Position numbers and translations under genes: made by a program | In this document: piece after piece, positions 12,754-42,705 of the stretch | Layout of the letters: each line of letters opens with the position of its first letter | Numbering within the stretch: the stretch's first letter is position 1 | The notes under the pieces: generated by a model | Seen by the model: only the letters and a program-made list of their open reading frames with translations | Told to the model about the DNA's origin: nothing | Databases searched by the model: none | Source: Cellulophaga lytica DSM 7489 | GTDB lineage: Bacteria; Bacteroidota; Bacteroidia; Flavobacteriales; Flavobacteriaceae | Assembly: GCF_000190595.1 (NCBI RefSeq) | Contig: NC_015167.1 | Coordinates: 2,469,501-2,533,500 of the forward strand | Direction of reading: 5' to 3' | DNA: 64,000 nt

Positions 12754-12932
12754 ATTAAAAAACTACCACAGGTAAACTATTTTATGTCAATTACACATTT
12801 CCGTAATTGTGATATAAAAAATAGTTTTACATTGTAGGAAAATTAACAGACAAAAAACAACTAGAAAGGCAAATGTGCGTTTATACAACCATATTGGCGG
12901 AATAAACGCAATTAATTGCGTTTATATGTAGT
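12754..12932 (+). repeat. Cassette leader repeat, copy 1
   Basis: One of three well-preserved copies (others at 33395-33531 and 40310-40396). It has CAATTACACATTTCCGTA followed by a promoter-like segment, the block TTGTAGGAAAA, then a hairpin-prone tract. The tract pairs GCGTTTAT with ATAAACGC and contains a perfect 24-bp palindrome at 12902-12925. Similarity to the other leaders ends at TAGTT (12929-12933), exactly where the first gene cassette begins. It behaves like a fixed platform next to which cassettes have been inserted. Confidence 0.7.
12807..12835 (+). promoter_or_regulatory. Promoter-like element of leader copy 1
   Basis: TTG at 12807-12809, an 18-bp spacer, then TACATTGT at 12828-12835. 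The same TTG-N17/18-TANATTGT arrangement is conserved in the two other leaders, while neighbouring bases vary. It resembles the Bacteroidota -33/-7 promoter and would transcribe the cassettes. Confidence 0.5.
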
Positions 12933-12947
12933 TAGGCAACATAAAAA

Positions 12948-31140: not shown

Positions 31141-33342
31141 ATGACATTATCAGTATGGAGATACAGCCACCTTGTGTTGGCTGTATCTTCTTCTATTTTT
31201 ATTTTATTGGCAGCCGTAACAGGTTCTGTTTTAGCGTTAGAGCCAATTAGCAATCGTATACAGCCATACACTACAGGCGATTTAGACCAAATTACTGTTG
31301 CAGAATTTACACATACACTACAGCAAAAGTATGCAGAGGTTATTTCTGTAGAAATAGATAAAAATAGCTGGGTTACAGCATCTGTTATTACCAAAGATGG
31401 TACAGATAAAATAATATACATAGACCCTAAAACAGGAGATAGTTTAGGTACACCTAAAGAAACTAGCCCTGTGTTTAAATTTGCAACTACCTTACACCGT
31501 TCCTTATTTTTAAAAGGCATTGGTAGGTTTTTTGTAGGCTTGTCTTCATTATTACTTTGTTTAATAAGTATTAGCGGTATTTTTTTAATCTTAAAAAAGC
31601 AAGGTGGTGTTAAAGGTTTTTTTAAACCAATAGTTAAAGAAAGCTTTAATCCGTATTACCATACGGTTTTTGGTAAATGGTTGCTTATTCCTATTTTAAT
31701 AGTAACGCTAACAGGCGTGTATTTGTCTTTAGAACAGTTTTCTATAATACCGTCTGCAAAAATTGTACACCAAGAAGATACCTTGTTTGCAGAAGAACCA
31801 GTTATTCCTGTATCTGAGTTTAAGGTTTTTAAAAATATAAAATTATCAGAAGTTCGTAAAATAGAGTACCCTTTTGCACCTTTTCCAGAGAGTTACTTTT
31901 TAGTGCAATTAACAAATAAAGAGTATTTAATAAACCAATTTAATGGAGATATAGTTAGTCAGGTTAACTATCCGTTTTATGTAATATTAACTTATTACAG
32001 TACACTTTTTCATACAGGGCAGGGGAGTATAGTATGGAGTATAGTTTTGTTATTAGCCTCTATTGGTATTTTATTTTTTATGTATTCTGGCTTTAGCATT
32101 ACACTAAAACGCAGAAAATCTAGAATAAAAAACAAGTATAAAAAAGACAATTGCGATTATGTAATTCTTATTGGGTCTGAAAACGGAAACACCTTTTATT
32201 TTGCCAACGCATTATACTCAGAGTTACTACGTTTGGGTAAAAAAGCATATTTGGCAGAACTAAACAGCTACAAAAGCTATAAAAATATGCAGCATTTGGT
32301 GGTAATGACCTCTACTTATGGCACAGGAGAAGCACCAACAAATGCTAAAAAGTTTAAAGCACTTTTAAATACGCACCAACAAGGCGCAAAGTTTAACTAC
32401 TCGGTTGTAGGTTTTGGATCATTAGCATACCCAGACTATTGCAAGTTTGCTTATGATGTAGATACTATGTTACAAGCGCACCCAAACAATAACCGTTTGG
32501 CAGATGTGTTTACCATAAACAACCAAAGTTTAGAATCTTTTAACCAGTGGTTGTTAGCGTGGAGCAAGCAAGAAAATTTAAACATAAGTTTACCAAAAGC
32601 TATTGGTAGTAAAAAGAAACGTAAAACCTATGCTTTTACTGTAACCAAACACACCAAGGCAGAAAATAATCCGGACGATACTTTTTGTATATACCTAAAA
32701 CCAGTAGAAAAAGTAAAGTTTACCTCCGGAGATTTACTCTCTATTTTGGGCGAAAAAGACCAGAGAGAACGTTTGTACTCCATTGGTAAGTGGAATAAAA
32801 ACGAGCTTGTTATAAGCGTTAAACGTCATCAAAAAGGCAGTGTGTCTAATAGGCTACAAAACCTTGCTGTGGGCAACAAAATAAGCTGTGGTATAGTAAA
32901 AAACAAAGCATTTCATTTGCCTAAAAAAGCAAAAGAAGCCCTGTTAATAGCAACTGGTACAGGTATTGGCCCTTATTTAGGGATGATACACCAAAACACT
33001 GCACACAAAAAATTACACCTGTATTGGGGTGGGCGTACAGCAGCATCTTTTGAGCTATACAAAAACCAATTAGAAACACAGCAACAAGCAGGTAACCTAA
33101 CCTCTTTACATTTGGCATTGTCTAGAGAACAAGCCCAAAAAGTATACGTGCAAAACCTGTTAGCGGCAAATGGTAAAGAAGTTGCCCAACTTATAAAAAA
33201 CAAAGGTTATATTTTAATTTGCGGCTCTATAGGTATGCAAAAAGAGGTTACTACGGTTTTAGATACCATTTGTAAAAACCACCTAAAAAAGCCACTGAGT
33301 TACTACCAAAACAAAGGTTATATTTTAATGGACTGCTACTAA
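31141..33342 (+). CDS. PepSY membrane protein fused to flavodoxin and NADPH:flavin reductase domains
   Basis: 733 aa. The N-terminal half is a PepSY-associated transmembrane unit with four helices (about 8-32, 124-146, 177-198 and 295-318) and a periplasmic PepSY region. Then comes a flavodoxin domain (about 340-480; IGSENGNTFYFANAL and STYGTGEAP bind FMN). A ferredoxin-reductase-like module follows (about 495-733; FAD motif RLYSIG and NADPH loop ATGTGIGPY). It would pass electrons from cytoplasmic NADPH across the inner membrane, most likely to reduce ferric siderophore. It corresponds in role to XusC-type partners. Confidence 0.88.
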   Translation: MTLSVWRYSHLVLAVSSSIFILLAAVTGSVLALEPISNRIQPYTTGDLDQITVAEFTHTLQQKYAEVISVEIDKNSWVTASVITKDGTDKIIYIDPKTGDSLGTPKETSPVFKFATTLHRSLFLKGIGRFFVGLSSLLLCLISISGIFLILKKQGGVKGFFKPIVKESFNPYYHTVFGKWLLIPILIVTLTGVYLSLEQFSIIPSAKIVHQEDTLFAEEPVIPVSEFKVFKNIKLSEVRKIEYPFAPFPESYFLVQLTNKEYLINQFNGDIVSQVNYPFYVILTYYSTLFHTGQGSIVWSIVLLLASIGILFFMYSGFSITLKRRKSRIKNKYKKDNCDYVILIGSENGNTFYFANALYSELLRLGKKAYLAELNSYKSYKNMQHLVVMTSTYGTGEAPTNAKKFKALLNTHQQGAKFNYSVVGFGSLAYPDYCKFAYDVDTMLQAHPNNNRLADVFTINNQSLESFNQWLLAWSKQENLNISLPKAIGSKKKRKTYAFTVTKHTKAENNPDDTFCIYLKPVEKVKFTSGDLLSILGEKDQRERLYSIGKWNKNELVISVKRHQKGSVSNRLQNLAVGNKISCGIVKNKAFHLPKKAKEALLIATGTGIGPYLGMIHQNTAHKKLHLYWGGRTAASFELYKNQLETQQQAGNLTSLHLALSREQAQKVYVQNLLAANGKEVAQLIKNKGYILICGSIGMQKEVTTVLDTICKNHLKKPLSYYQNKGYILMDCY

Positions 33343-33351
33343 AAACAAACT

Positions 33352-33383
33352 AAAACCCGTAACTGTATGTTATGGGTTTTTTT
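33352..33383 (+). terminator. Rho-independent terminator
   Basis: AAAACCCGTAAC (33352-33363) pairs with GTTATGGGTTTT (33369-33380), then TTT. It ends the iron operon directly before the second cassette block. Confidence 0.9.
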
Positions 33384-33394
33384 GTGCCATTTAT

Positions 33395-33531
33395 ACTCTT
33401 TTTTAACCCAATTACACATTTCCGTATTTGTACTACAAAAAATGTTTCTATATTGTAGGAAAAAGTAATTATTGTGTTTATACCACCAATATGGCAGAAT
33501 AAACGCAATTAATTGCGGTTACTAACTAGTT
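33395..33531 (+). repeat. Cassette leader repeat, copy 2
   Basis: Shares CAATTACACATTTCCGTA, TTGTAGGAAAAA, the GTTTATACCACCAATATGG hairpin and AATAAACGCAATTAATTGCG with copy 1, and GCGGTTACTAACTAGTT with copy 3. The promoter-like element is TTG at 33428-33430, an 18-bp spacer, then TATATTGT at 33449-33456. Identity with both other copies stops after TAGTT at 33531. Confidence 0.75.
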
Positions 33532-33552
33532 GTAAAACATTAGAAAAAAACT

Positions 33553-34401
33553 ATGCGAAATCTAATAAACGCTTTTCTTGACAGTTCAAAAGACCGGTTG
33601 AAAAATCCGTTTATTGGAGCATTTGTTTTTGCTTGGATTGGAATAAATTGGCGACCAATTATTACACTTTTGTTTTCTGAAAAGAGCATTGCTGAACGTA
33701 TTCAAAAAATAGAAACTGATTATAGTTCATTATGGTTGACATTATTTTTACCGTTAATCATAGCAGTATTCTATATAGTGGTAATACCCTACATAATGTG
33801 GCTCTTTGACACTTTTTCAAATCTTGCTTTGAAAAATCGGAAAGAAAATTTATTTAAACATAGAATGCACGATATAGAAGGAAGAAAGAAAATGGCCATT
33901 GGCGAAAGCGAGATTGAAGAAATTAAATCGAACTATAGAGAAAAAGCGGATTTGAATAAAAAAATGGAGCAAATGGCTTTGACACTTGAAAAGAAAAACG
34001 AAATTATAGAAAACTTGCAAGTTAAAGTTGAGACACTTACAACAGACTACGATAATTTAAAGAAACTTTCGACTGATGCTACAAATTTGAGCTTCACTTT
34101 GGAGGAAGAGCAGAAACTAAATAAAGAATACTCTGAATTTAGAAATGAGGATTACTCTGAATATTTTGAAGAAGTTGGTGCCGAAGTAAGCCAAAACAAT
34201 TCTGTTCCCGATAAAATCAATAAAATTATAATTGAAAAGTACATTTATGCTGGCATTATCAAAAAGATAGAAGACCGACAAGAACAAACATTAGATTATG
34301 TTTTTACAAGAAAGGGAAGATATTTTTGGAAGGAATATGTTAGTGGAATAAGAGTTAGTAAACCAACAACGATAAGTTCGGCTGATGATTTACCATTTTG
34401 A
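33553..34401 (+). CDS. Two-helix membrane protein with coiled coil (cassette gene)
   Basis: 282 aa. An N-terminal NPFIGAFVFAWIGINWRPI segment precedes two membrane helices (about 22-45 and 62-88). A cytoplasmic coiled coil follows (about 110-180, Lys/Glu heptads), then a C-terminal domain (about 215-282) resembling a winged helix. It may be a membrane-tethered sensor or effector. GTTGTAAAAC begins the cassette 24 bp upstream and GTTTTACAAC follows the stop by 8 bp, so it is a one-gene cassette of about 1.03 kb. No family name known to me. Confidence 0.7.
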   Translation: MRNLINAFLDSSKDRLKNPFIGAFVFAWIGINWRPIITLLFSEKSIAERIQKIETDYSSLWLTLFLPLIIAVFYIVVIPYIMWLFDTFSNLALKNRKENLFKHRMHDIEGRKKMAIGESEIEEIKSNYREKADLNKKMEQMALTLEKKNEIIENLQVKVETLTTDYDNLKKLSTDATNLSFTLEEEQKLNKEYSEFRNEDYSEYFEEVGAEVSQNNSVPDKINKIIIEKYIYAGIIKKIEDRQEQTLDYVFTRKGRYFWKEYVSGIRVSKPTTISSADDLPF

Positions 34402-34409
34402 GAAATAAC

Positions 34410-34570
34410 GTTTTACAACATCGTATAAAAACAATAGGGCAATTTTAGCAAAACTGAATGGTTTGGGTATATTTCGAGGTCGCCAAATTTTTAAATTTGG
34501 CTTGTAGCTCAACAGAATGATAACAGCGTATTTTCAGCCCTACTGTTCTTATACACAACCGTTCTAAAAC
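34410..34570. other. attC-like recombination site 5
   Basis: 161 bp. Left arm GTTTTACAACATCGTATAA...CAATAGGGC and right arm GCCCTACTGTTCTTATACACAAC then GTTCTAAAAC are complementary over about 30 bp with few mismatches. The left end is the exact reverse complement of this cassette's own start (33529-33538). The right end starts the next cassette. Confidence 0.7.
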
Positions 34571-34590
34571 ATTAAAACAAATGAACAAAA

Positions 34591-35322
34591 ATGAAAAATA
34601 AATTTATTCTAATATTGATTACATCAGTTACTTTTTTAAGTATGACATATAAGAATTTAGAACCTGTGAAGTGCTTAGTTGGAGGCAATAATAGTTTATT
34701 TGATGTACACCTCAAAATAAATGGAGTAAGTATTAAAAATGGATATGTGGGTAATCTTAAAATTATGAATGAAAATCACCCCTTAAAAGAAGGGTTAGAC
34801 AATATGCCTTCTTTTATGAAAGATGAGCTTGCTTTTATCCTAAAAGAAGGTGAAAACAATATTGAATTAGAATTTAAAAGAAATGGAGGTAGCTATGAAA
34901 GCAATGGACAATTTACTTTTTCATTGACCCGTTCAAGTTTAAACATTCCTCTTTATTATTTTTCAAGTCGAAAAGATTCTGGAAAAGTAACTTCAAAGTT
35001 TTATATACAGGATAAGAAGCTAAAAGAAAATTATACCAGTCTAGGTAATACAGATGCTTCATTTATTGCTTCTGAAAAAATTAATTACTTCCAAGCTTTT
35101 TTAAATGATGAAAGTTTAATGTCTTTTGGGGGTACAAGTGGAATTACTGATTTAGATTTAATTGAAGATAATAACAAGTTAGAAATCAAATATAAAAGTG
35201 CATACGAAGGTGAATTCTCATATTATATTAAAACTCCTAACTTTACTAAAAAAGTAATAAAAAACATATCTAAAGACCAACTTAATAAAACAATAGTTGA
35301 TGTCTACGAGTTTAAAAAGTGA
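34591..35322 (+). CDS. Exported hypothetical protein (cassette gene)
   Basis: 243 aa with an N-terminal signal peptide (about 1-19, FILILITSVTFLSM). The body is beta-rich and Ser/Asn-rich, perhaps two immunoglobulin-like domains. The ATG at 34591 is the right start: one ten bases upstream runs into a stop after six codons. The cassette opens with GTTCTAAAAC (34561-34570), and GTTTTACAAC follows the gene, 9 of 10 complementary. Function unknown. Confidence 0.65.
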   Translation: MKNKFILILITSVTFLSMTYKNLEPVKCLVGGNNSLFDVHLKINGVSIKNGYVGNLKIMNENHPLKEGLDNMPSFMKDELAFILKEGENNIELEFKRNGGSYESNGQFTFSLTRSSLNIPLYYFSSRKDSGKVTSKFYIQDKKLKENYTSLGNTDASFIASEKINYFQAFLNDESLMSFGGTSGITDLDLIEDNNKLEIKYKSAYEGEFSYYIKTPNFTKKVIKNISKDQLNKTIVDVYEFKK

Positions 35323-35335
35323 AATTAAAAATAAC

Positions 35336-35560
35336 GTTTTACAACGCTGTGTATAAAACATAGCTAGTAAGTGCTAATTCGATTGGTTTGGAATTATTTA
35401 CTAAGACCGCCAAATAGAATATTATGCGATAGCGAAATGGTCTATTTTGGCTTTTAAAAGAGAAAATTTAAAACAAAATATTTATATTTAGCTAAGTGAC
35501 AAACTGAAACGATAGTGCTTATCACCTGCCTTACGTTTCTTATACATAAACGTTGTGAAC
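35336..35560. other. attC-like recombination site 6
   Basis: 225 bp, the largest of the set. Left end GTTTTACAAC-GCTGTGTATAAAAC, right side GTTTCTTATACATAAAC then GTTGTGAAC. A TAGCTAGTAAGTGCTAATT arm and a GCCAAATAGAATA/TATTTTGGC hairpin lie inside. It separates the preceding cassette from the Mokosh pair. Confidence 0.6.
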
Positions 35561-35606
35561 CATCAAAGAATAACCGTACTCAAATTGAAAAACTGAATAT
35601 TATTGA

Positions 35607-38600
35607 ATGATTTTAGACAAATACCAACTATGCGGAGAAATCCAAAACAGAGGTTATTCATCAACCGCTAAAGTGACAGATGAAAGTGGAGAAATTTATT
35701 TTGCCAAATGGATAAAAGGAATTGAGAAAAATTCACAGCCGAGTAAAATTCTCTATAGCAAATTAAGACACTTAAAAAAAGCATTTCACGCTTCCCTACC
35801 GAAAATTATTGAATACGAATGGGACGAAAATCAAAGCGCGTATTGCATAATATTTGAAAATAAAAACGCAAGTTCTTTAGAAGAAAATATTTTTGAAATT
35901 AAACCAACGCATTTTTTAAAAGGGATTGAACAAATTGCAAATTGCTTACAGCAATTGCAACAAAAACATAAACTTACTCACGGAGATATAACACCTGCAA
36001 ATATACTTGTAGATGAAAACTTTGATTTTTACTTAATTGATTTCGGAATTTCAGATATTTCTGCAACCTTAAGCCAATCACAAGAATTAGAAATTTTCGC
36101 AAAAGAATTTGCGTCACCTGAAAAATGGGATAGAAAAATCCCAAAGGGATTTCCTTATCAATCAGACATTTATTCTATAGGAAAAGTTATTGAATGGTAT
36201 TTTACACAAAATGAAATTAACGAATTTGGAAGTATCAAAGAGTTAATAGATAAATGTTGTGAAACACAACCTAATGAAAGACTGAACTACAATCAATTTA
36301 ATGAAGATCTCTTAAAAATTTATCAAAGTATTTCATTCAATTCTGATTACTATATCTATACTTCAGGAGAAAACAATGAAGAACTAATTAATGAATTAAA
36401 TGATAAAAACATTAAAATTGAAGTTTGGAGTAGTTCTAAAAATGAAAACATAATTCTACTTGATATAATTACTAATTCTTTCATTGTACATTGTTTATGG
36501 ATAATAGATGAAAATGAATTGACAATTCGTAATTTTTGTAGTAAAATAGAAGATGAAAAGAAGCATTCAAGAATTTCAAAATATGGAAAGAAGTTTAATG
36601 TTCCATTATCTTTTACTTCTCAATACCGCCAAATTGATTATCATAACTTAACACCTTTTTTTAAAAAAATACAAAAAGAAAAACAACACGAAAGCGAATA
36701 TAGAAAAGGAAAAAGAGAGATTACTAAAGAATTGAAATTCTTTAAAGATTTACTAACCAAAGAAATGCAAGTTTTAGAAAAAAACTCATTAAGGTTACGT
36801 TTTGTAAGTTTTGAGAAAAAAGGAAATTATGAAATTTTATTTAAAATTCAAGACAATAAAAAATTCAGCAAGAATGGTTTAATTTTTTCTCATATTGACA
36901 AAGCAACACCACCAAGTCCAGAAGATTTTGAATTTATCGTAAGTGAAACTGCCGATAAAAAACAAATGAAAGACCCAATGAAATTTTCGGGAGTTGCTTA
37001 TGATTTCAATACAAAAACAAGAGTTCTAAAATTTAAGGATTGTGAACGATTAGATTTTGAAAAAATCCCCAAAAATGGTTACATATTTGAAAATATCAGT
37101 AAACAAGAAGAGGAAAAGAAAAGACAATTAGAAGCAATACGAAAAGTAGAGTATAATGAAGTTCAAAATAGAGATTTAATACATTACGTTTTTAATCCTA
37201 CTGATTTGCAAGGCAAATATCTTGATTTTCAGGAACTAACAAATGTTTATCAAACAGACGAAAAAGGTAATGACTTTGTATATAGTTTTAATCAACAAAA
37301 AGCAATACTAAATGCAATTCATAGAGAACCTTTAACAATTATTCAAGGTCCACCAGGAACAGGAAAAACAACTGTAATAACAGAAACAGTATTTCAAATA
37401 TTAAATAAAAATCCTGATGCTAAAATTTTAATCACTTCTCAAACAAATGATGCAGTTGATAATGTTTTAGATAATCTATTGGAAAAAGAAATTCCAATTG
37501 TTCGGTTAAGTGGCATTAGAAAACCAAAAGCAAGTTTGCAAAAACATACTTTAGACAGAAAAATTGAAGGTTGGAAAGAAGAAGTAAGAAAAAAAGCTAA
37601 AGCCAATTGGAAACTATATAAAGAACAATTTAAAAGGGCATTAGAAAAAGAGAATATTATTCTATTACCAATTTTTGAAATTCTTTCTTCCAATAAACAA
37701 TGGAAAGTAAAAAAGCAACAAATAGAAAAAATGTTAGAACGTTTCAATATGTTTAAAGGTTTAGAAAAATCTTTAACTTCTGAAACAGCCTTTATAACAT
37801 CAATCAATAGTTTTGTAAAAGTAAATTTTGAAGAATATTTTTTAAAACAACAAATATTTAAAGATTGGTTAGCAACAATTAGTTCGTTAGATGAGAATAG
37901 CAATATAAATCAAAAATTAATAGATAGCATTAGAGTAATTGGAGCAACAACTAATCATATTGCATCAAAAAAATATCAAAAATATAATTTTGAATTTGAC
38001 TATGTAATAATGGACGAAAGTGGAAAAGCAACCACAGCAGAAGCATTAATACCAACAGTTTTAGCCGAAAAATTAATTCTTGTTGGCGACCATAGGCAAT
38101 TAAGACCAATGCTAACTGCAAATCGTGAAGTTGAAAAATGGTTAAGAGAAAAGTTTAAAACTGACACGGATGAATTTGATAGTTGGGATGATTATTTTAA
38201 TAGACCAAGTTTATTTGAGCAAGTAATAACAAAAATTGATGATGACTTTAAAAGTCAGTTAGAAGAATGTAGAAGAAGTTCAAAAGACCAAGTTTTACTA
38301 ACTTCAAAATGCTTTTACGAACCTTTTGGAGATGAACCTATAAAACCAGTTGAAAGACCGCAAGAAAAAGAACATAATCTTGATTTAAAAATTGATAGTT
38401 CAATTATCTTCCTTGACATTGGTAATTCATATAAAAGTGAAATTGATAGAAATGGTTCGTCAAGAAATAAATTAAGTGCTGAATTAATTCCAGAACTTCT
38501 AAATAAATTAGAGAGGTTTGATAAAGTAAAGAATTACACAATTGGTGTTATTACGGGGTATTCTGCACAAGTAAGAGAAATAAGAAAAGTTGTAAGAAAT

Positions 38601-38933
38601 AAAGTTGATTATCGTAAACTAAAAAATGTAAAATCTAACAATGTAGTTATATCTGTTGTAGATAAATTTCAAGGTTTAGAAAAGGATATTATAATTTTTG
38701 ATTTAGTAAGAAGTCAGCAACAAACATTAGGATTTTTATCTAATGCAAATCGTATAAATGTCGCTTTATCAAGACAAAAAAAACTATTAATTATTGTTGG
38801 TAATTTAGATAGTATATTGAGTGCTAAACCACCAAAAGATTTGGAAAACACAAATCAAAAACCAGCATTGCAAAAATATTTAAGTGAATTGAAGAAAGAT
38901 TGGATTGTTAAAAACGTAGAACAAATATTTTAA
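35607..38933 (+). CDS. mkoA: Mokosh type I MkoA: Ser/Thr kinase-like domain fused to SF1 helicase
   Basis: 1108 aa. Residues about 1-240 are a kinase fold: Lys near 33 in FAKW, catalytic loop HGDITPAN (about 124) and DFG (about 145). A linker of about 300 residues is followed by a superfamily 1 (COG1112/UPF1-like) helicase: Walker A GPPGTGKTT (about 581), motif II DESG (about 802), GYSAQV, and motifs V/VI DKFQGLEKDII and NVALSRQKK (about 1018-1058). Kinase plus helicase in one chain with a PLD partner next door is the definition of the antiphage system Mokosh type I. The stop codon overlaps the mkoB start by one base. It is carried as a cassette-like insert. Confidence 0.87.
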   Translation: MILDKYQLCGEIQNRGYSSTAKVTDESGEIYFAKWIKGIEKNSQPSKILYSKLRHLKKAFHASLPKIIEYEWDENQSAYCIIFENKNASSLEENIFEIKPTHFLKGIEQIANCLQQLQQKHKLTHGDITPANILVDENFDFYLIDFGISDISATLSQSQELEIFAKEFASPEKWDRKIPKGFPYQSDIYSIGKVIEWYFTQNEINEFGSIKELIDKCCETQPNERLNYNQFNEDLLKIYQSISFNSDYYIYTSGENNEELINELNDKNIKIEVWSSSKNENIILLDIITNSFIVHCLWIIDENELTIRNFCSKIEDEKKHSRISKYGKKFNVPLSFTSQYRQIDYHNLTPFFKKIQKEKQHESEYRKGKREITKELKFFKDLLTKEMQVLEKNSLRLRFVSFEKKGNYEILFKIQDNKKFSKNGLIFSHIDKATPPSPEDFEFIVSETADKKQMKDPMKFSGVAYDFNTKTRVLKFKDCERLDFEKIPKNGYIFENISKQEEEKKRQLEAIRKVEYNEVQNRDLIHYVFNPTDLQGKYLDFQELTNVYQTDEKGNDFVYSFNQQKAILNAIHREPLTIIQGPPGTGKTTVITETVFQILNKNPDAKILITSQTNDAVDNVLDNLLEKEIPIVRLSGIRKPKASLQKHTLDRKIEGWKEEVRKKAKANWKLYKEQFKRALEKENIILLPIFEILSSNKQWKVKKQQIEKMLERFNMFKGLEKSLTSETAFITSINSFVKVNFEEYFLKQQIFKDWLATISSLDENSNINQKLIDSIRVIGATTNHIASKKYQKYNFEFDYVIMDESGKATTAEALIPTVLAEKLILVGDHRQLRPMLTANREVEKWLREKFKTDTDEFDSWDDYFNRPSLFEQVITKIDDDFKSQLEECRRSSKDQVLLTSKCFYEPFGDEPIKPVERPQEKEHNLDLKIDSSIIFLDIGNSYKSEIDRNGSSRNKLSAELIPELLNKLERFDKVKNYTIGVITGYSAQVREIRKVVRNKVDYRKLKNVKSNNVVISVVDKFQGLEKDIIIFDLVRSQQQTLGFLSNANRINVALSRQKKLLIIVGNLDSILSAKPPKDLENTNQKPALQKYLSELKKDWIVKNVEQIF

Positions 38934-40300
38934 TGGACATACAAGAAATACATAAAAAGTTAGACAAACAATGTCCAAGCGATTATAAGATAAATGAAAT
39001 TATCCAATTTGCATATCCTTACAGACGAGTTCGTATAAATGCGACTGTAAATAAATCGCCTGAAAAATCAATACAACAAGTGTATTCTGTTTTTTTAAGA
39101 ACAATAAAAGCAGGTTATAACAAAGAAGAACAATTAATCAAATTTTTAGGTCTTAACAAAGAAGACTTTATATTAAGGGAATTATACTTTTTGCGTGAAA
39201 GAGGCTTCGTAAATTTTGCTTCAGGTATTTGGTTAGTAACCAAACAAGGAGAAGAATTTGTAAAAGATAATAGCATTTTAAAAATTCTTGAAGAAGAAGA
39301 ATTTGAATTTTTAATTGATGCAATATCAAATGAAGCCATTCAAAAGAATTTTAGATTATTTAGCGATAAAAGTATTGAAAACAAATTAAATTCAGAGATA
39401 GATTATTCAATCAAAAATCCTGAATTGCTTAAAAATAAAAACGAACAACTTTCTGATATTTATAAAAGAGAGAATAATGGAAAAGCATATTTAGTTGATT
39501 ACGACAAGTCAAACATTAAGTTTGATAAAAAGGAAAATCACGATTATTATTTAATCGAATATATTCCAATAAAGGAAAAAGAAAGTGAATTAGAACCATA
39601 TATTGAAGTTAGAAATACAGATAAAGATATTTCAAAAGAAAAACGCCTTTCAAAATCTCTATCTGAAAAATATCCAAGTATATTATATCAGTTTACAACT
39701 TCCGATAGAACAAGTTTTGCAAAAATTCAAGAAGATAATAATAGTGAACTTTTAGAAGAGTTTAAAGTAACCGAAACTGAGAAAAAGATAACCGAAACGC
39801 AAGCACTTTCGGTTTGGGAAACGCAAGAAAAATTTGCAGAAGCATTAAAGACAGTTAAATCTAAAATATTAATAGAAAGTCCTTGGGTAAAACGTGCTAC
39901 TTTAAAATATATAATTAGCATTGAGAAAGCATTACAAAGAAATGTAAATGTTATCATATTATATGGAATTGAAAGTAATGATGAACATCATTACGGAACA
40001 ATTGAAAAACTTCGAAAGTTAAAAAGCAAATACCAAAATAATTTTCATTTAATCCATTTACCTACTCATTTTGAAGAACAAGAGAACTATAAAATGACAG
40101 GAACACATAGAAAATTGATAATAAAAGACAATGACTATTATATACAAGGAAGTTTTAATTTTCTATCATTTAACAAAGAAAAAGGACAGAAAATAGCGAA
40201 TGAGGAAAGTATTTTAATTCCTCAAAATGTGGAAATGAAATGGAAGAACGTTCTGAAAGAATACGGAATAAATAAGGGTGGTAACAAAGGACTGAGGTGA
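38933..40300 (+). CDS. mkoB: Mokosh type I MkoB: PLD-family protein
   Basis: 455 aa. The N-terminal part (about 1-110) is helical and winged-helix-like (RERGFVNFASGIWLVTKQGE). The middle is unassigned. The C-terminal third (about 290-440) is a phospholipase D-type nuclease domain with one HKD motif, HRKLIIKD followed by GSFN (about 392-411), and an earlier SPWVKRATL strand. A single HKD motif means it must dimerise to form an active site. It overlaps mkoA (TAATG), so production is coupled. In Mokosh the pair blocks phage growth; the trigger and target are not shown by the sequence. Confidence 0.85.
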   Translation: MDIQEIHKKLDKQCPSDYKINEIIQFAYPYRRVRINATVNKSPEKSIQQVYSVFLRTIKAGYNKEEQLIKFLGLNKEDFILRELYFLRERGFVNFASGIWLVTKQGEEFVKDNSILKILEEEEFEFLIDAISNEAIQKNFRLFSDKSIENKLNSEIDYSIKNPELLKNKNEQLSDIYKRENNGKAYLVDYDKSNIKFDKKENHDYYLIEYIPIKEKESELEPYIEVRNTDKDISKEKRLSKSLSEKYPSILYQFTTSDRTSFAKIQEDNNSELLEEFKVTETEKKITETQALSVWETQEKFAEALKTVKSKILIESPWVKRATLKYIISIEKALQRNVNVIILYGIESNDEHHYGTIEKLRKLKSKYQNNFHLIHLPTHFEEQENYKMTGTHRKLIIKDNDYYIQGSFNFLSFNKEKGQKIANEESILIPQNVEMKWKNVLKEYGINKGGNKGLR

Positions 40301-40318
40301 AAACCATTAACTTTTCAC
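40297..40318 (+). terminator. Hairpin at the end of mkoB
   Basis: GTGAAAA (40297-40303) pairs with TTTTCAC (40312-40318) and overlaps the mkoB stop. There is no long T-run, so termination may be weak. It takes the place of the terminators in front of the other leaders. Confidence 0.4.
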
Positions 40319-40396
40319 TAAAACACTTCTGTAATTGCACTAAAAAAATAATTTTATATTGTAGGAAAATGTAATTATTGCGGTTACTAACTAGTT
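40310..40396 (+). repeat. Cassette leader repeat, copy 3 (shortened)
   Basis: Shares CTGTAATTGCACTA-like and TATATTGTAGGAAAATGTAA segments with the others, and GCGGTTACTAACTAGTT with copy 2. The hairpin tract is missing, as if deleted between the AATTATTG and AATTAATTG repeats seen in copy 2. The promoter-like element is TTG at 40335-40337, a 17-bp spacer, then TATATTGT at 40355-40362. The cassette joint is at 40394-40396. Confidence 0.7.
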
Positions 40397-40426
40397 GTGC
40401 ATTAATATAAACCTACCATCAAACTA

Positions 40427-41023
40427 ATGGAAAACGAATTTGCTAAAGTAATGTCCGAGAGGACAGATGAAGAATTAATAAAGATTGTAACAGTTGAAAG
40501 AGAAAGATACAATACGACTGCAATCGAAGCAGCAGATGCGGAAGTTGAAAAACGGAATATAGACACATCTGAATTCGTAAAAATCCGAGAAAAAGCAACA
40601 GCCGAAAAAGAACAAAAACAAAAAGTTGACTCAAATGTTGTTGGTTCTGGAATTCGATTTGTGAATTTACTGATTGACTTTATTGTATGGTTGGTTTTAG
40701 CATTTATTATCAGTTTTGTAATCGGACTTTTTGTCCAACCGACTGACCAAGGAATGATTTCACTAATTGGTTATATTTTAATTTTTGGAACTTTTATAGC
40801 TTACTATGCGATAATGGAAATTAAATTTCAAAAAACAATTGGAAAGTTTGTAACCAAAACAAAAGTTGTGAAAATGAACAGAGAAAAACCGACAGACGGA
40901 GATATAATGACTCGGACTTTTTGCCGACTAATTCCATTTGACCGACTTTCGTTTCTATTTGTTAATAACGGAATTCACGATTTTTTATCGAAAACAAAAG
41001 TTGTAAAAGACAATGTGGAATAA
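40427..41023 (+). CDS. RDD family membrane protein (cassette gene)
   Basis: 198 aa. A charged helical N-terminus (about 1-70) is followed by an RDD domain. GIRFVNLLIDFIVW opens the first membrane helix, IGKFVTKTKVV is the conserved loop and TRTFCRLIPFD the third motif, with three membrane helices in all. RDD proteins are proposed ion or small-molecule transporters. It is the first cassette after leader copy 3: GTTGTGCATTA upstream and TAATGCCAAC after the stop are complementary with one base missing. Confidence 0.8.
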   Translation: MENEFAKVMSERTDEELIKIVTVERERYNTTAIEAADAEVEKRNIDTSEFVKIREKATAEKEQKQKVDSNVVGSGIRFVNLLIDFIVWLVLAFIISFVIGLFVQPTDQGMISLIGYILIFGTFIAYYAIMEIKFQKTIGKFVTKTKVVKMNREKPTDGDIMTRTFCRLIPFDRLSFLFVNNGIHDFLSKTKVVKDNVE

Positions 41024-41028
41024 AATAC

Positions 41029-41175
41029 TAATGCCAACATTGTATAACCTCAATTACGTCGTCCTGACAGTTCGGGAGACTAGGTCCTAATCTACTCGGA
41101 ATTGCTAACGTCAGTTCTTTACCGAAAATTATTAACTTTAATCCCGTAACTGACGGTTATACAAGACCGTTGCGC
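41029..41175. other. attC-like recombination site 7
   Basis: 147 bp, bounded by TAATGCCAAC and GTTGCGC. Inner arms TTGTATAACC (41040-41049) and GGTTATACAA (41155-41164) are perfectly complementary. A second arm pair is CAATTACGTC with TCCCGTAACTGACG. The core TAGGTCCTAATCTACTCGG is shared with site 8. Confidence 0.65.
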
Positions 41176-41188
41176 ATAATTTGAGAAA

Positions 41189-41752
41189 ATGGGATTAGAC
41201 ATTAATTTAATGGTAAATAATGATAGTGAAGTAATCACGTCAGAATACTTTGAAAATAGCAATCTCTATTCTCTGAGTAGAGAATTTTGTAATTTAATGT
41301 GCAGACCAGGAGTAGTTGAACACACATCTGAATTTGACCAAATTGGAGAAATAACGAATATCAATATATCTCATTTGTACAAAATGACCGAATACCCAAG
41401 CGAAGAGGAAGAAGTCAATATGATTGAGTTTGCGGAAAATGAAGAAGAAAAGGAATGTTTAAAGTCTGATTTCGAAAAGAGAAAAGAAGATTTAAATGGA
41501 AATATAAACCAAGTAAAAGTTCTTGTAGAAAACTTAATCAATAAACTGGAAAATATTGATAATCTGTACGAAAAATTAATAAAAACGGATTTTGACTCAA
41601 TGAACTCTGAATACTATTTTTCGGACTTCAATAAAGACAAAGGAGAAGGTTATGTTGGAAATAATTTTGGACAAGACTTACGAAATTTCAAAAGATTTAT
41701 TGACTATGCGATTGACCGAAATTCAGAAACAATTTGGTTTGAATATGTATAA
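41189..41752 (+). CDS. Acidic hypothetical protein (cassette gene)
   Basis: 187 aa, strongly acidic, soluble, mostly helical, with a run EYPSEEEEVNMIEFAENEEE near residues 70-89. It starts MGLDINLMV, a beginning seen in many small uncharacterised cassette and phage proteins. No motif points to an activity. It is enclosed by two nearly identical attC-like sites, so it can be seen as a mobile single-gene unit. Confidence 0.6.
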   Translation: MGLDINLMVNNDSEVITSEYFENSNLYSLSREFCNLMCRPGVVEHTSEFDQIGEITNINISHLYKMTEYPSEEEEVNMIEFAENEEEKECLKSDFEKRKEDLNGNINQVKVLVENLINKLENIDNLYEKLIKTDFDSMNSEYYFSDFNKDKGEGYVGNNFGQDLRNFKRFIDYAIDRNSETIWFEYV

Positions 41753-41877
41753 CCGCAATTACGGCGTCCCTAAAGTTCGGGAGGCTAGGTCCTAATCTAC
41801 TCGGAATTGCTAAAGTCTGTGATAAGCCGAAAACATTAACTTTAATCCCGTAACTGACGGTTATACGAGACCGATAT
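41744..41877. other. attC-like recombination site 8
   Basis: Nearly a copy of site 7: it shares TAGGTCCTAATCTACTCGG, AACTTTAATCCCGTAACTGA and the GTATAACC/GGTTATAC arms. The left end overlaps the stop codon of the preceding gene, so the outer R'' box is missing. The 3' GTT reads GAT, so the site is probably damaged. Confidence 0.55.
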
Positions 41878-41899
41878 AAACAAAACCTTAAAAACCGAG

Positions 41900-42526
41900 A
41901 TGATAAAACAAAAATTCCTAAATTTAATTAGAAAATATTCTTCTAATGAAGATTATAATTTGGAATGTTGGATTGAAATTGAGGACAATTATTTGTCTAA
42001 ATCTCGTCATTATCATAATCTTGAGCATTTAGATAATATGATTTCGGAATTAAGTAAAATTCAATCAGAAGTTAACGATTTAGACTGCTTATTATTTGCC
42101 ATCTACTATCATGACATTATTTACAAACCAACTAAAAGCGATAATGAACATCAAAGTGCTTTAAGGTTTGAAAATAGAATTGCTAAAACTTCATTTAACA
42201 AATTGAGTAAATGTATAGCGCAAATTGAGGCAACAAAAGAACATAAATTATCAGATGACAATGATACAAACATACTTTTAGATTTAGATCTTTCAGTATT
42301 AGGTAAAAGTACTGAAGAGTATAAAAAATATAGTGAGAACATCAGAAAAGAATATAGAATCTACCCAGATTTTATGTATAAGAAAGGAAGAAAAAAAGTA
42401 CTTAAAAGCATTTTGGAATTGGATTCTATTTATAAAACAGATTATTTCAAACAACTTTATGAAAAACAAGCAAAAAAGAACTTAACGCTTGAATTAAATC
42501 AATTTTTAAAAGCAAAACCTAAATAG
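41900..42526 (+). CDS. Predicted metal-dependent HD-superfamily phosphohydrolase
   Basis: 208 aa, cytoplasmic. HD-domain marks: RHYHNLEHLDNM (first His), AIYYHDIIYKP (the HD pair) and LDLDLSVLG (distal Asp). This matches the COG4339 family of uncharacterised phosphohydrolases. It is the last gene of the third cassette block; no attC-like site follows it. The substrate, perhaps a nucleotide, is unknown. Confidence 0.82.
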   Translation: MIKQKFLNLIRKYSSNEDYNLECWIEIEDNYLSKSRHYHNLEHLDNMISELSKIQSEVNDLDCLLFAIYYHDIIYKPTKSDNEHQSALRFENRIAKTSFNKLSKCIAQIEATKEHKLSDDNDTNILLDLDLSVLGKSTEEYKKYSENIRKEYRIYPDFMYKKGRKKVLKSILELDSIYKTDYFKQLYEKQAKKNLTLELNQFLKAKPK

Positions 42527-42705
42527 CTAAAGTAAAAGACTTTAAATTAAGTGAAGAAGCAATATTGGTGCTTTAAAAAAATAAAAAAAATGACATCTAC
42601 AATTTTGACCTTTCAAATAAAAAACTAGAATAATTATTACTACTATAAGCGTAAAACATACTTAAATTGTAGTATTTGGCACAAAAAAACAATGATATAA
42701 AAGCA

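Follow-up and report, generated by a model that had tools for sequence, protein, structure and literature searches.

How does a two-gene defence operon come to stand between an attC-like cassette site and a truncated attI-like leader? The question is raised by a locus of Cellulophaga lytica DSM 7489, whose 3.77-Mb genome (G000) forms a single contig (C1, NC_015167.1). We analyzed a stretch of 64,000 nucleotides (nt), G000:C1:2469501-2533500, referred to as the window; positions given without a contig or locus prefix are window positions. The genes in question, mkoA and mkoB, form a Mokosh pair, and our answer, which we hold to be very likely, is that this operon was captured as a large cassette by an integron-like system, lost its exit site to the hit of an IS110-family insertion sequence (IS) and a deletion, and is now largely fixed.

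The first gene, mkoA (35607-38933, + strand), encodes a protein of 1108 amino acids (aa) with a protein-kinase-like domain and a superfamily 1 (SF1) helicase, recognized by PADLOC, Pfam and motifs; the second, mkoB (38933-40300, + strand), encodes a 455-aa nuclease of the phospholipase D (PLD) type, recognized by PADLOC, a motif and alignment. They overlap by one base (38933, TAATG), and lengths and overlap alike agree with an earlier sequence-only reading of this DNA, which had named the genes a Mokosh type I pair. The profile search that it had proposed assigns them to Mokosh and to no other family: MkoA matches PADLOC model PDLC03920 with E 6.4e-143 (residues 2-1095 against model positions 7-1097 of 1112), and MkoB matches PDLC03922 with E 2.5e-30 (residues 24-377). 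MkoA further contains the Pfam domains Pkinase, AAA_11 and AAA_12, with the motifs HGD, DFG and Walker A at residues 125, 145 and 581, while MkoB has a single HKD motif at residue 392 and a PLDc_2 match under the Pfam cut-off. With kinase-like and SF1 helicase domains joined in MkoA and a PLD-type MkoB encoded by a separate adjoining gene, the pair is classed as a Mokosh operon, and as type I by its two separate genes, following the division of Mokosh into types I and II. It shares with Mokosh type I the two genes, the kinase plus SF1 helicase and PLD nuclease, and the near full-length match to the MkoA model; it differs in that the pair is carried as a cassette and in a hypervariable block of MkoA. 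Type II, with mkoC, is described in the available part of PMC10013915. Following the family, MkoA would sense phage nucleic acid or a phage protein and license the MkoB nuclease. The hypervariable block lies between the kinase and helicase parts (residues 201-354; 36207-36668), and in it identity with five homologues is 22-65% in blocks of about 20 residues, as against 85-100% just before it. This pattern resembles that of a sensor module that was exchanged or evolves fast. The block makes a good candidate for the sensor, and it may render the MkoA tree mosaic. No confirmed relative of MkoA was found in the viral_contigs collection, and none in plasmids at E 1e-60.

Evidence for the cassette form comes from other genera. 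Homologues were drawn from a species-genome collection through peptide patterns that recover close relatives only (36 stretches matched, 6 of which encode a relative), and from a search of 299 genomes of the family with MkoA at E 1e-80, whose three matches were the window genome, the Maribacter locus again (G075) and G029. Winogradskyella epiphytica (L056) carries a complete Mokosh cassette, which starts with GTTGCCAACC, ends with GGTTGGCAAC and runs into a full attC-like site, on a contig with 12 found sites; it measures 4847 nt from crossover to crossover, its arms are perfect over 10 nt, and 7 of the 7 variable positions pair. The unusually large two-gene cassette of about 4.8 kb envisaged from the window alone thus exists intact in this species. 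Maribacter sedimenticola (L055) has the pair flanked on both sides by attC-like sites, with one mismatch between the arms; beside its cassette lie units without any open reading frame (ORF), at L055 9610-9945 and after 14790, where GAT/ATC replaces GTT/AAC at the crossover. The window pair is 91-92% identical in nucleotides to both loci over 35561-40275, and this includes the 5' untranslated stretch, which aligns fully with each; for the pairs of W. epiphytica and M. sedimenticola, identity with the window's MkoA is 89%. A third homologue, from a metagenome-assembled genome of the Saprospiraceae (L058), matches the 5' stretch partially, with a score of 36, where 500 shuffles reached 27 at most; this trace of the cassette's 5' end (AACCATCAAAGAA) lies at L058 9954-10000, and the copy has no attC. 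The four remaining homologues show no likeness to the 5' stretch, their scores of 15-19 falling inside the shuffle range. Comparison of flanks, as the sequence-only reading had recommended, therefore found attC-like boundaries on both sides in two of seven distinct close homologues and a 5'-end trace in one, and with cassette or trace in three of the seven the homologues do not always sit in core positions free of such repeats. The corresponding body in the window (35552-40285, + strand) keeps the 5' cassette end, has lost its attC, and has arms that no longer pair with each other. The complete equivalents in L056 and L055 support the view that the window pair is a former cassette.

The loss at the 3' end can be followed almost base by base. 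Within the last codons of mkoB stands GGGTGGTAAC (40276-40285, + strand), left over from the cassette's 3' (R'') arm; 8 of its 10 bases are as in GGTTGGCAAC of the W. epiphytica and Maribacter cassettes. Directly after its AAC comes AAAGGACTGAGGTGAAAACC, and 40286-40336 (- strand) is what is left of an IS110-family element, still encoding the transposase end NYRSVLVKS*, identified by local alignment, by shared ends and by the element family of the sister genome G305. Homology of mkoB stops at residue 446-449 of 455, and the final MkoB residues derive from the attC arm and the IS remnant. Aligned locally to the IS end at C1:1079418, which codes for NYRSVLVES*, the remnant scores 63, and none of 500 shuffles exceeded 30. 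When up to one mismatch is allowed, ends of the type AACAAAGTACTGTGGTAAAAA recur at five further positions of the window genome (C1:812274, 1079418, 1656292, 1710892 and 2657349) and are present in four sister genomes, and W. epiphytica has six exact ones. The search pattern for these ends contains AAC; two further matches in G000, and one or two in each of G034, G082, G159 and G316, all have three mismatches and were treated as background, and the backward control gave 0 or 1 match. G305 preserves a whole element, whose 332-aa transposase matches PF02371 (1.7e-22) and PF01548 (2.9e-18) and so has both domains of the IS110/IS1111 family, DEDD_Tnp_IS110 and Transposase_20; the window keeps the element's end only. 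The G305 element lies at L159 9100-10320, in an attC-like site, flanked by TATTGCTAAC and CCGTGTATAATT and hence sitting between R'' and L'' (one full insertion, judged by eye). The non-coding end of the element should reveal its IS110-family guide RNA.

Two other accounts of the missing attC were set aside. Random decay is ruled out by the IS110-family end directly behind mkoB, and a standard array terminus formed by the IS end was dropped with the G305 locus, where a full IS with transposase lies between two parts of an attC. The sequence-only reading had pointed out that the reverse complement of the pair's 5' arm does not follow mkoB and had suspected a lost 3' end that fixed the pair in place. 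The reverse complement is indeed not present there, where the arm relic and the IS110 end now stand, and the 3' end has been lost, by a cause that was then unnamed and that we see in an IS110-family hit behind the R'' arm plus a deletion. The loss of the exit site holds; 'fixed' is not proven, because a partial attI now follows the pair. That partial attI belongs to leader copy 3 (40331-40393, + strand; nhmmer profile positions 7-90), which is truncated at its 5' end, has an internal deletion of about 43 nt and is not matched by the attI core pattern. The internal deletion is, by reading, common to G305, and the junction of remnant and leader falls, likewise by reading, within a GTAATT that is found on both sides.

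The pair would accordingly have passed through the following history. It would have been captured at a leader by attC x attI recombination as one two-gene cassette, the reaction presumably catalyzed in trans by an IntI-like enzyme, and later insertions would have pushed it to third place behind the leader, about 819 kb from the integrase gene. The attC of the cassette would then have been hit by an IS110-family element immediately past the R'' arm. A deletion at the short shared GTAATT would next have taken out the greater part of the IS together with what was left of the attC, joining the cassette to the truncated leader. With its normal exit site gone, the pair would now be largely fixed. 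Transcription may start in the leader, as the shape of the leader suggests; the cassette's 5' stretch, at 54 nt, would hardly accommodate a separate promoter.

The leaders are read as attI-like sites with a promoter-like stretch, which is a putative promoter by shape only, judged by the promoter consensus. Leader copy 2 (pad 1; 33409-33528, + strand) combines the two, with the G of the crossover triplet at 33529, and was found by the nhmmer leader profile and by the attI core (G000:C1:2502999). In the textbook picture, an integron platform carries a single attI. Here, a search of 25 genomes with an attI core pattern allowing up to two mismatches found 14 distinct places in G000, of which 13 are dispersed over the chromosome and one adjoins the integrase gene, and 12 to 18 places in each of G302, G303, G305 and G309. 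G300 gave one match, with two mismatches, and 12 other genomes of the genus gave none. The core occurs at one place, beside the integrase gene, in G034 and in G082, and at two places in G159; G079, G029, W. epiphytica and Maribacter have no match, and the backward control gave 0 throughout except for 1 in G309. The full leader behaves similarly, with 18-31 matches in 5 of the 18 genomes of the genus and 2 weak matches in one more. Because the attI core has no match in W. epiphytica or Maribacter, dispersed pads are limited to five genomes of one genus and were not seen wherever such cassettes occur. The sequence-only reading had placed the pair before leader copy 3, where it is; what is refined is that the leaders are attI-like modules dispersed over the chromosome and that copy 3 is truncated.

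Most of these leaders appear to hold a cassette of their own. Not counting truncated leaders, 42 leader hits extend to the end of the attI. In 20 of them the arm of the first cassette matches perfectly (7/7), and in 33 it matches at 6 or more positions, in excess of the 2.3% (7/7) and 16.7% (at least 6) obtained with swapped starts; at least two of the hits look spurious, and the sequence available behind a hit is only 166 nt in one case and only 1.5 kb in many. Another complete leader lies in the window itself at 12780-12933, and its first cassette has arms that match 7/7 (site at about 13947).

A candidate enzyme exists in the same genome. A 297-aa tyrosine recombinase is encoded at C1:1685207-1686097 (minus strand), about 819 kb from mkoA; directly after its gene comes an attI copy and then about 24 kb of mostly small ORFs running in the same direction on the minus strand, which we call the main array. 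The site finder, whose search condition is AAC and GTT cores, located 24 sites in the 35 kb around this gene. The attI core also stands right behind the integrase gene in G302, G303, G305, G309, G034, G082 and G159, which makes eight genomes with G000. Relatives of the integrase reach E 1e-60 in 141 of the 299 family genomes; outside the genus, identities of at least 79% were found only in G034, G082 and G159.

The sites themselves depart from the textbook form. Canonical R boxes follow the consensus RYYYAAC and GTTRRRY. Over 20 regions, 60 cassettes were delimited mechanically, intervals of at least 6 kb between detected sites being excluded, and GTTRRRY occurs in 3 and RYYYAAC in 2 of the 60. 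The pairing of arms nevertheless exceeds chance: a cassette's own arms pair at 6 or more of 8 positions in 41 of the 60, as against 4.4% for arms taken from different cassettes, some of the misses being stretches where a site escaped the finder. Pairing at no fewer than 6 of 7 arm positions is seen in 41 cassettes, whose median length is 771 nt; the longest, at 4847 nt, is the W. epiphytica Mokosh cassette. The bottom strands of five sites fold with z scores of -2.2 to -3.7 against mononucleotide shuffles. The finder overlooks sites: the two that flank the Mokosh cassette of Maribacter, and one within a stretch of 9 kb, were recognized only by reading. Its controls gave one site each in the reversed window and in window 1-30000 and none in reversed Maribacter sequence or in window 43001-64000. 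Rfam showed nothing at gathering threshold in 33300-42700, and no sites were seen at the other integrase locus of Maribacter, which lies at a contig end.

Sister genomes show how changeable the locus is. The same gene precedes the leader in the five genomes of the clade, the leader being intact in G302, G303 and G309 and truncated in G305; on the right, the window's LytTR gene (PF04397) is also present in G303, and another gene, of 289 aa, is shared by G302, G305 and G309. Between these borders lie 47 ORFs of at least 80 aa on the leader strand (7 in G000, 6 in G303, 12 in G302, 12 in G309 and 10 in G305), of which one each is shared in three genome pairs, and contents thus differ almost wholly between sister genomes. 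MkoA was not found in the four sisters at E 1e-80, and at that threshold the window genome alone has it among the 18 of the genus. In G302 and G309, at the place orthologous to 33272-33560, there are tandem copies of the upstream gene's last 70 bp with terminator and leader, each with other cassettes and joined via IS110 remnants.

Signs of recent movement come from the cassette before the pair. Cassette B (body 34561-35345, + strand; ORF 34591-35322, 243 aa; arms pairing at 6/8) is identical over 922 nt (34560-35481) to a cassette of the main array (L043) about 830 kb away, where the ORF lies at C1:1672327-1673055 (minus strand) and the protein is identical at 243 of 243 residues. A recent move of cassette B between main array and window is hard to avoid as an interpretation. 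The left border of the identity, 34560, is the start of the crossover triplet; the right border, 35481, falls inside the attC, whose last 70 nt differ. The attC of cassette B, called site 6 (35343-35551, + strand; fold z -2.3), is chimeric, because its first part matches the main-array copy and the rest differs. Site 6 lies directly before the Mokosh pair and ends GTTGTGAAC at 35552-35560, coordinates and sequence being those already read from the window.

Several observations weigh against a simple history of integrase-driven capture. The identity of cassette B stops inside the attC and not at a crossover, so that integrase action alone is insufficient; its left border favours the integrase and its right border does not. 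The integrase has no IntI-specific insertion around patch III: the alignment with IntI4 (2a3v) falls into two pieces, separated by 65 residues in IntI4 as against 22 in the query, which is 43 short at that place, the match to TIGR02249 reaches 206.8 bits against a cut-off of 265, and the Maribacter enzyme (L084) has the same short spacing, of 91 residues. In G305, the integrase gene is broken. In the window cassette, the 5' arm (GTTGTGAACC) has drifted and no longer pairs with its 3' counterpart. The four of seven homologues without cassette trace also count here: L057, L059 and L060 sit directly behind an HsdR gene (PF04313), and the upstream flank of the fourth, L054, resembles that of L060. 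Cassette and non-cassette copies, finally, intermix in the MkoA tree, from which it follows that homologous recombination also moves the pair or that the protein is mosaic.

If the pair were still mobile, it would leave by attC x attI excision, with site 6 recombining with the partial attI in leader copy 3, as is the case for delta-attI-type cassettes of mobile integrons. The layout is suited to this, with attC, mkoAB and partial attI in direct orientation and with a crossover region retained in leader 3 ahead of a further cassette; the available part of PMC12901181 gives a functional precedent, in which a partial attI likewise takes the place of attC behind the cassette. The arrangement here differs in arising by IS hit and deletion. 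We regard this mobility as unlikely, given that leader 3 is without about 43 nt of the attI core and escapes the core pattern, that the 5' arm has drifted, and that no circle or empty site was seen. Equally improbable, in our judgement, is the idea that such loci change hands through gene conversion, or through homologous recombination following uptake of DNA, and that the IntI-like enzyme is of little importance today. The tandem copies of the upstream gene's 3' end and leader in G302 and G309, the intermixing of cassette and restriction-island mkoA copies in the tree, and the identical block of cassette B that ends within an attC would all fit it; the left border of that block at the crossover, the 20 of 42 leader hits with a perfect first-cassette arm (2.3% for swapped starts) and the almost wholly different contents of the orthologous locus in sister genomes speak against it. 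That the pair was never a cassette here, site 6 being the last attC of array 1 and mkoAB chromosomal flank, would agree with the missing attC after mkoB and with the four trace-less homologues, but is exceedingly improbable for a body that begins at the crossover base with the 5' stretch of Maribacter and Winogradskyella, ends in a relic of their 3' arm and has no MkoA counterpart in four sister genomes and 17 of the 18 genomes of the genus (E 1e-80).

Because the integrase lacks the IntI insertion, TIGR02249 stays under its cut-off and the R boxes are off consensus, we describe the system as integron-like and refrain from classing it with the canonical integrons. We lean towards the view that Flavobacteriaceae possess a distinct integron-like system in which one IntI-like recombinase without the IntI-specific domain serves many dispersed attI pads in trans, cassettes may be whole defence operons, and an IS110-family element can freeze captured systems; the 922-nt identity of cassette B with a main-array cassette raised our estimate of this. 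Sedentary chromosomal integrons, whose defence cassettes are treated by Darracq et al. 2025 as related in the available text of the review PMC12409362, resemble it in having defence genes as cassettes, attC-like hairpins, an attI beside the integrase gene and an array of small ORFs in the same direction; they differ from what is seen here in the multi-gene systems of 3.7-8.2 kb, the dispersed attI, the integrase without IntI insertion and the R boxes off consensus. In the same portion of that review of 2025 work, integron-borne defence systems are said to be streamlined to small size, with larger ones absent, whereas two-, three- and six-gene defence units lie in single cassettes here. Similarly, attI is described as adjoining intI in the accessible part of PMC9668308, as against an attI core at 14 places in one genome and contents that differ between five sister genomes at one such place. 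If the integrase acts in trans, acquisition and expression of defence genes would be spread over the genome and not queued in a single array.

Integrons in the phylum are not new, since PMC8618304, in the part available, lists Bacteroidota among the phyla that have them; the integron of Salinibacter ruber M1, named as the complete integron of Bacteroidetes in PMC9024848, shares the phylum with the present system. For a Tenacibaculum genome, no integrons are reported by IntegronFinder in the available part of PMC10013915, and non-canonical sites and integrase may be the reason that standard searches miss such systems. A literature search over titles and abstract starts among the matches listed, with few subscription journals, found no flavobacterial integrons with dispersed attI and no Mokosh cassette. 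For the IS, the nearest known counterparts are the IS1111-attC elements (Tetu and Holmes 2008, Post and Hall 2009, both as cited in the available part of PMC11187229), which also are elements with a DEDD transposase at one end of attC sites; the flavobacterial element differs in lying between R'' and L'' of a divergent attC-like site, and is classed to the level of the IS110/IS1111 family only.

Further cassettes surround the pair in the window. Cassette A (33529-34419, + strand) follows leader copy 2 and carries an ORF of 282 aa (33553-34401) with no Pfam family; its start arm GTTGTAAAAC and end arm GTTTTACAAC pair at 7/7 variable positions. Its attC-like site (34417-34560, + strand) has the anatomy AAC ... 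GTATAA ... TTATAC ... GTT, and the bottom strand folds at -22.1 kcal/mol (z -3.7, mononucleotide shuffles). The first cassette behind leader copy 3 (40394-41038, + strand; start GTTGTGCATTA, end CTAATGCCAAC) encodes a protein of the RDD family (Pfam; ORF 40427-41023), and its attC-like site (41036-41168, + strand; fold z -2.6) is of a type with 15 further copies in the genome, 14 of them outside the window.

Other defence systems also occupy large cassettes. Of ten ORFs scanned in the main array, seven gave no defence match. The array holds a three-gene Lamassu cassette of 3656 nt with the arms GTTAGGGCTA / TAGCCCTAAC, in which LmuA (4.9e-43), LmuC (7.1e-7) and LmuB (8.1e-92) were recognized; these genes lie at G000:C1:1678335-1681871 (L043, minus strand) in one intact cassette. 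In Maribacter sedimenticola, a divergent IntI-like gene precedes an array with an 8.2-kb cassette (L220 8282-16470), whose perfect 9-nt arms are GTTACCCAC / GTGGGTAAC and whose six tightly packed genes encode AbiEi, AbiEii, an ATPase with a weak restriction-enzyme match, two proteins without match and an Eco57I-like methylase. Behind the dispersed leader at C1:2652642 in the window genome, a candidate defence helicase of type PDC-S53 (1340 bits) is encoded at L047 5485-8181 (C1:2653484-2656180).

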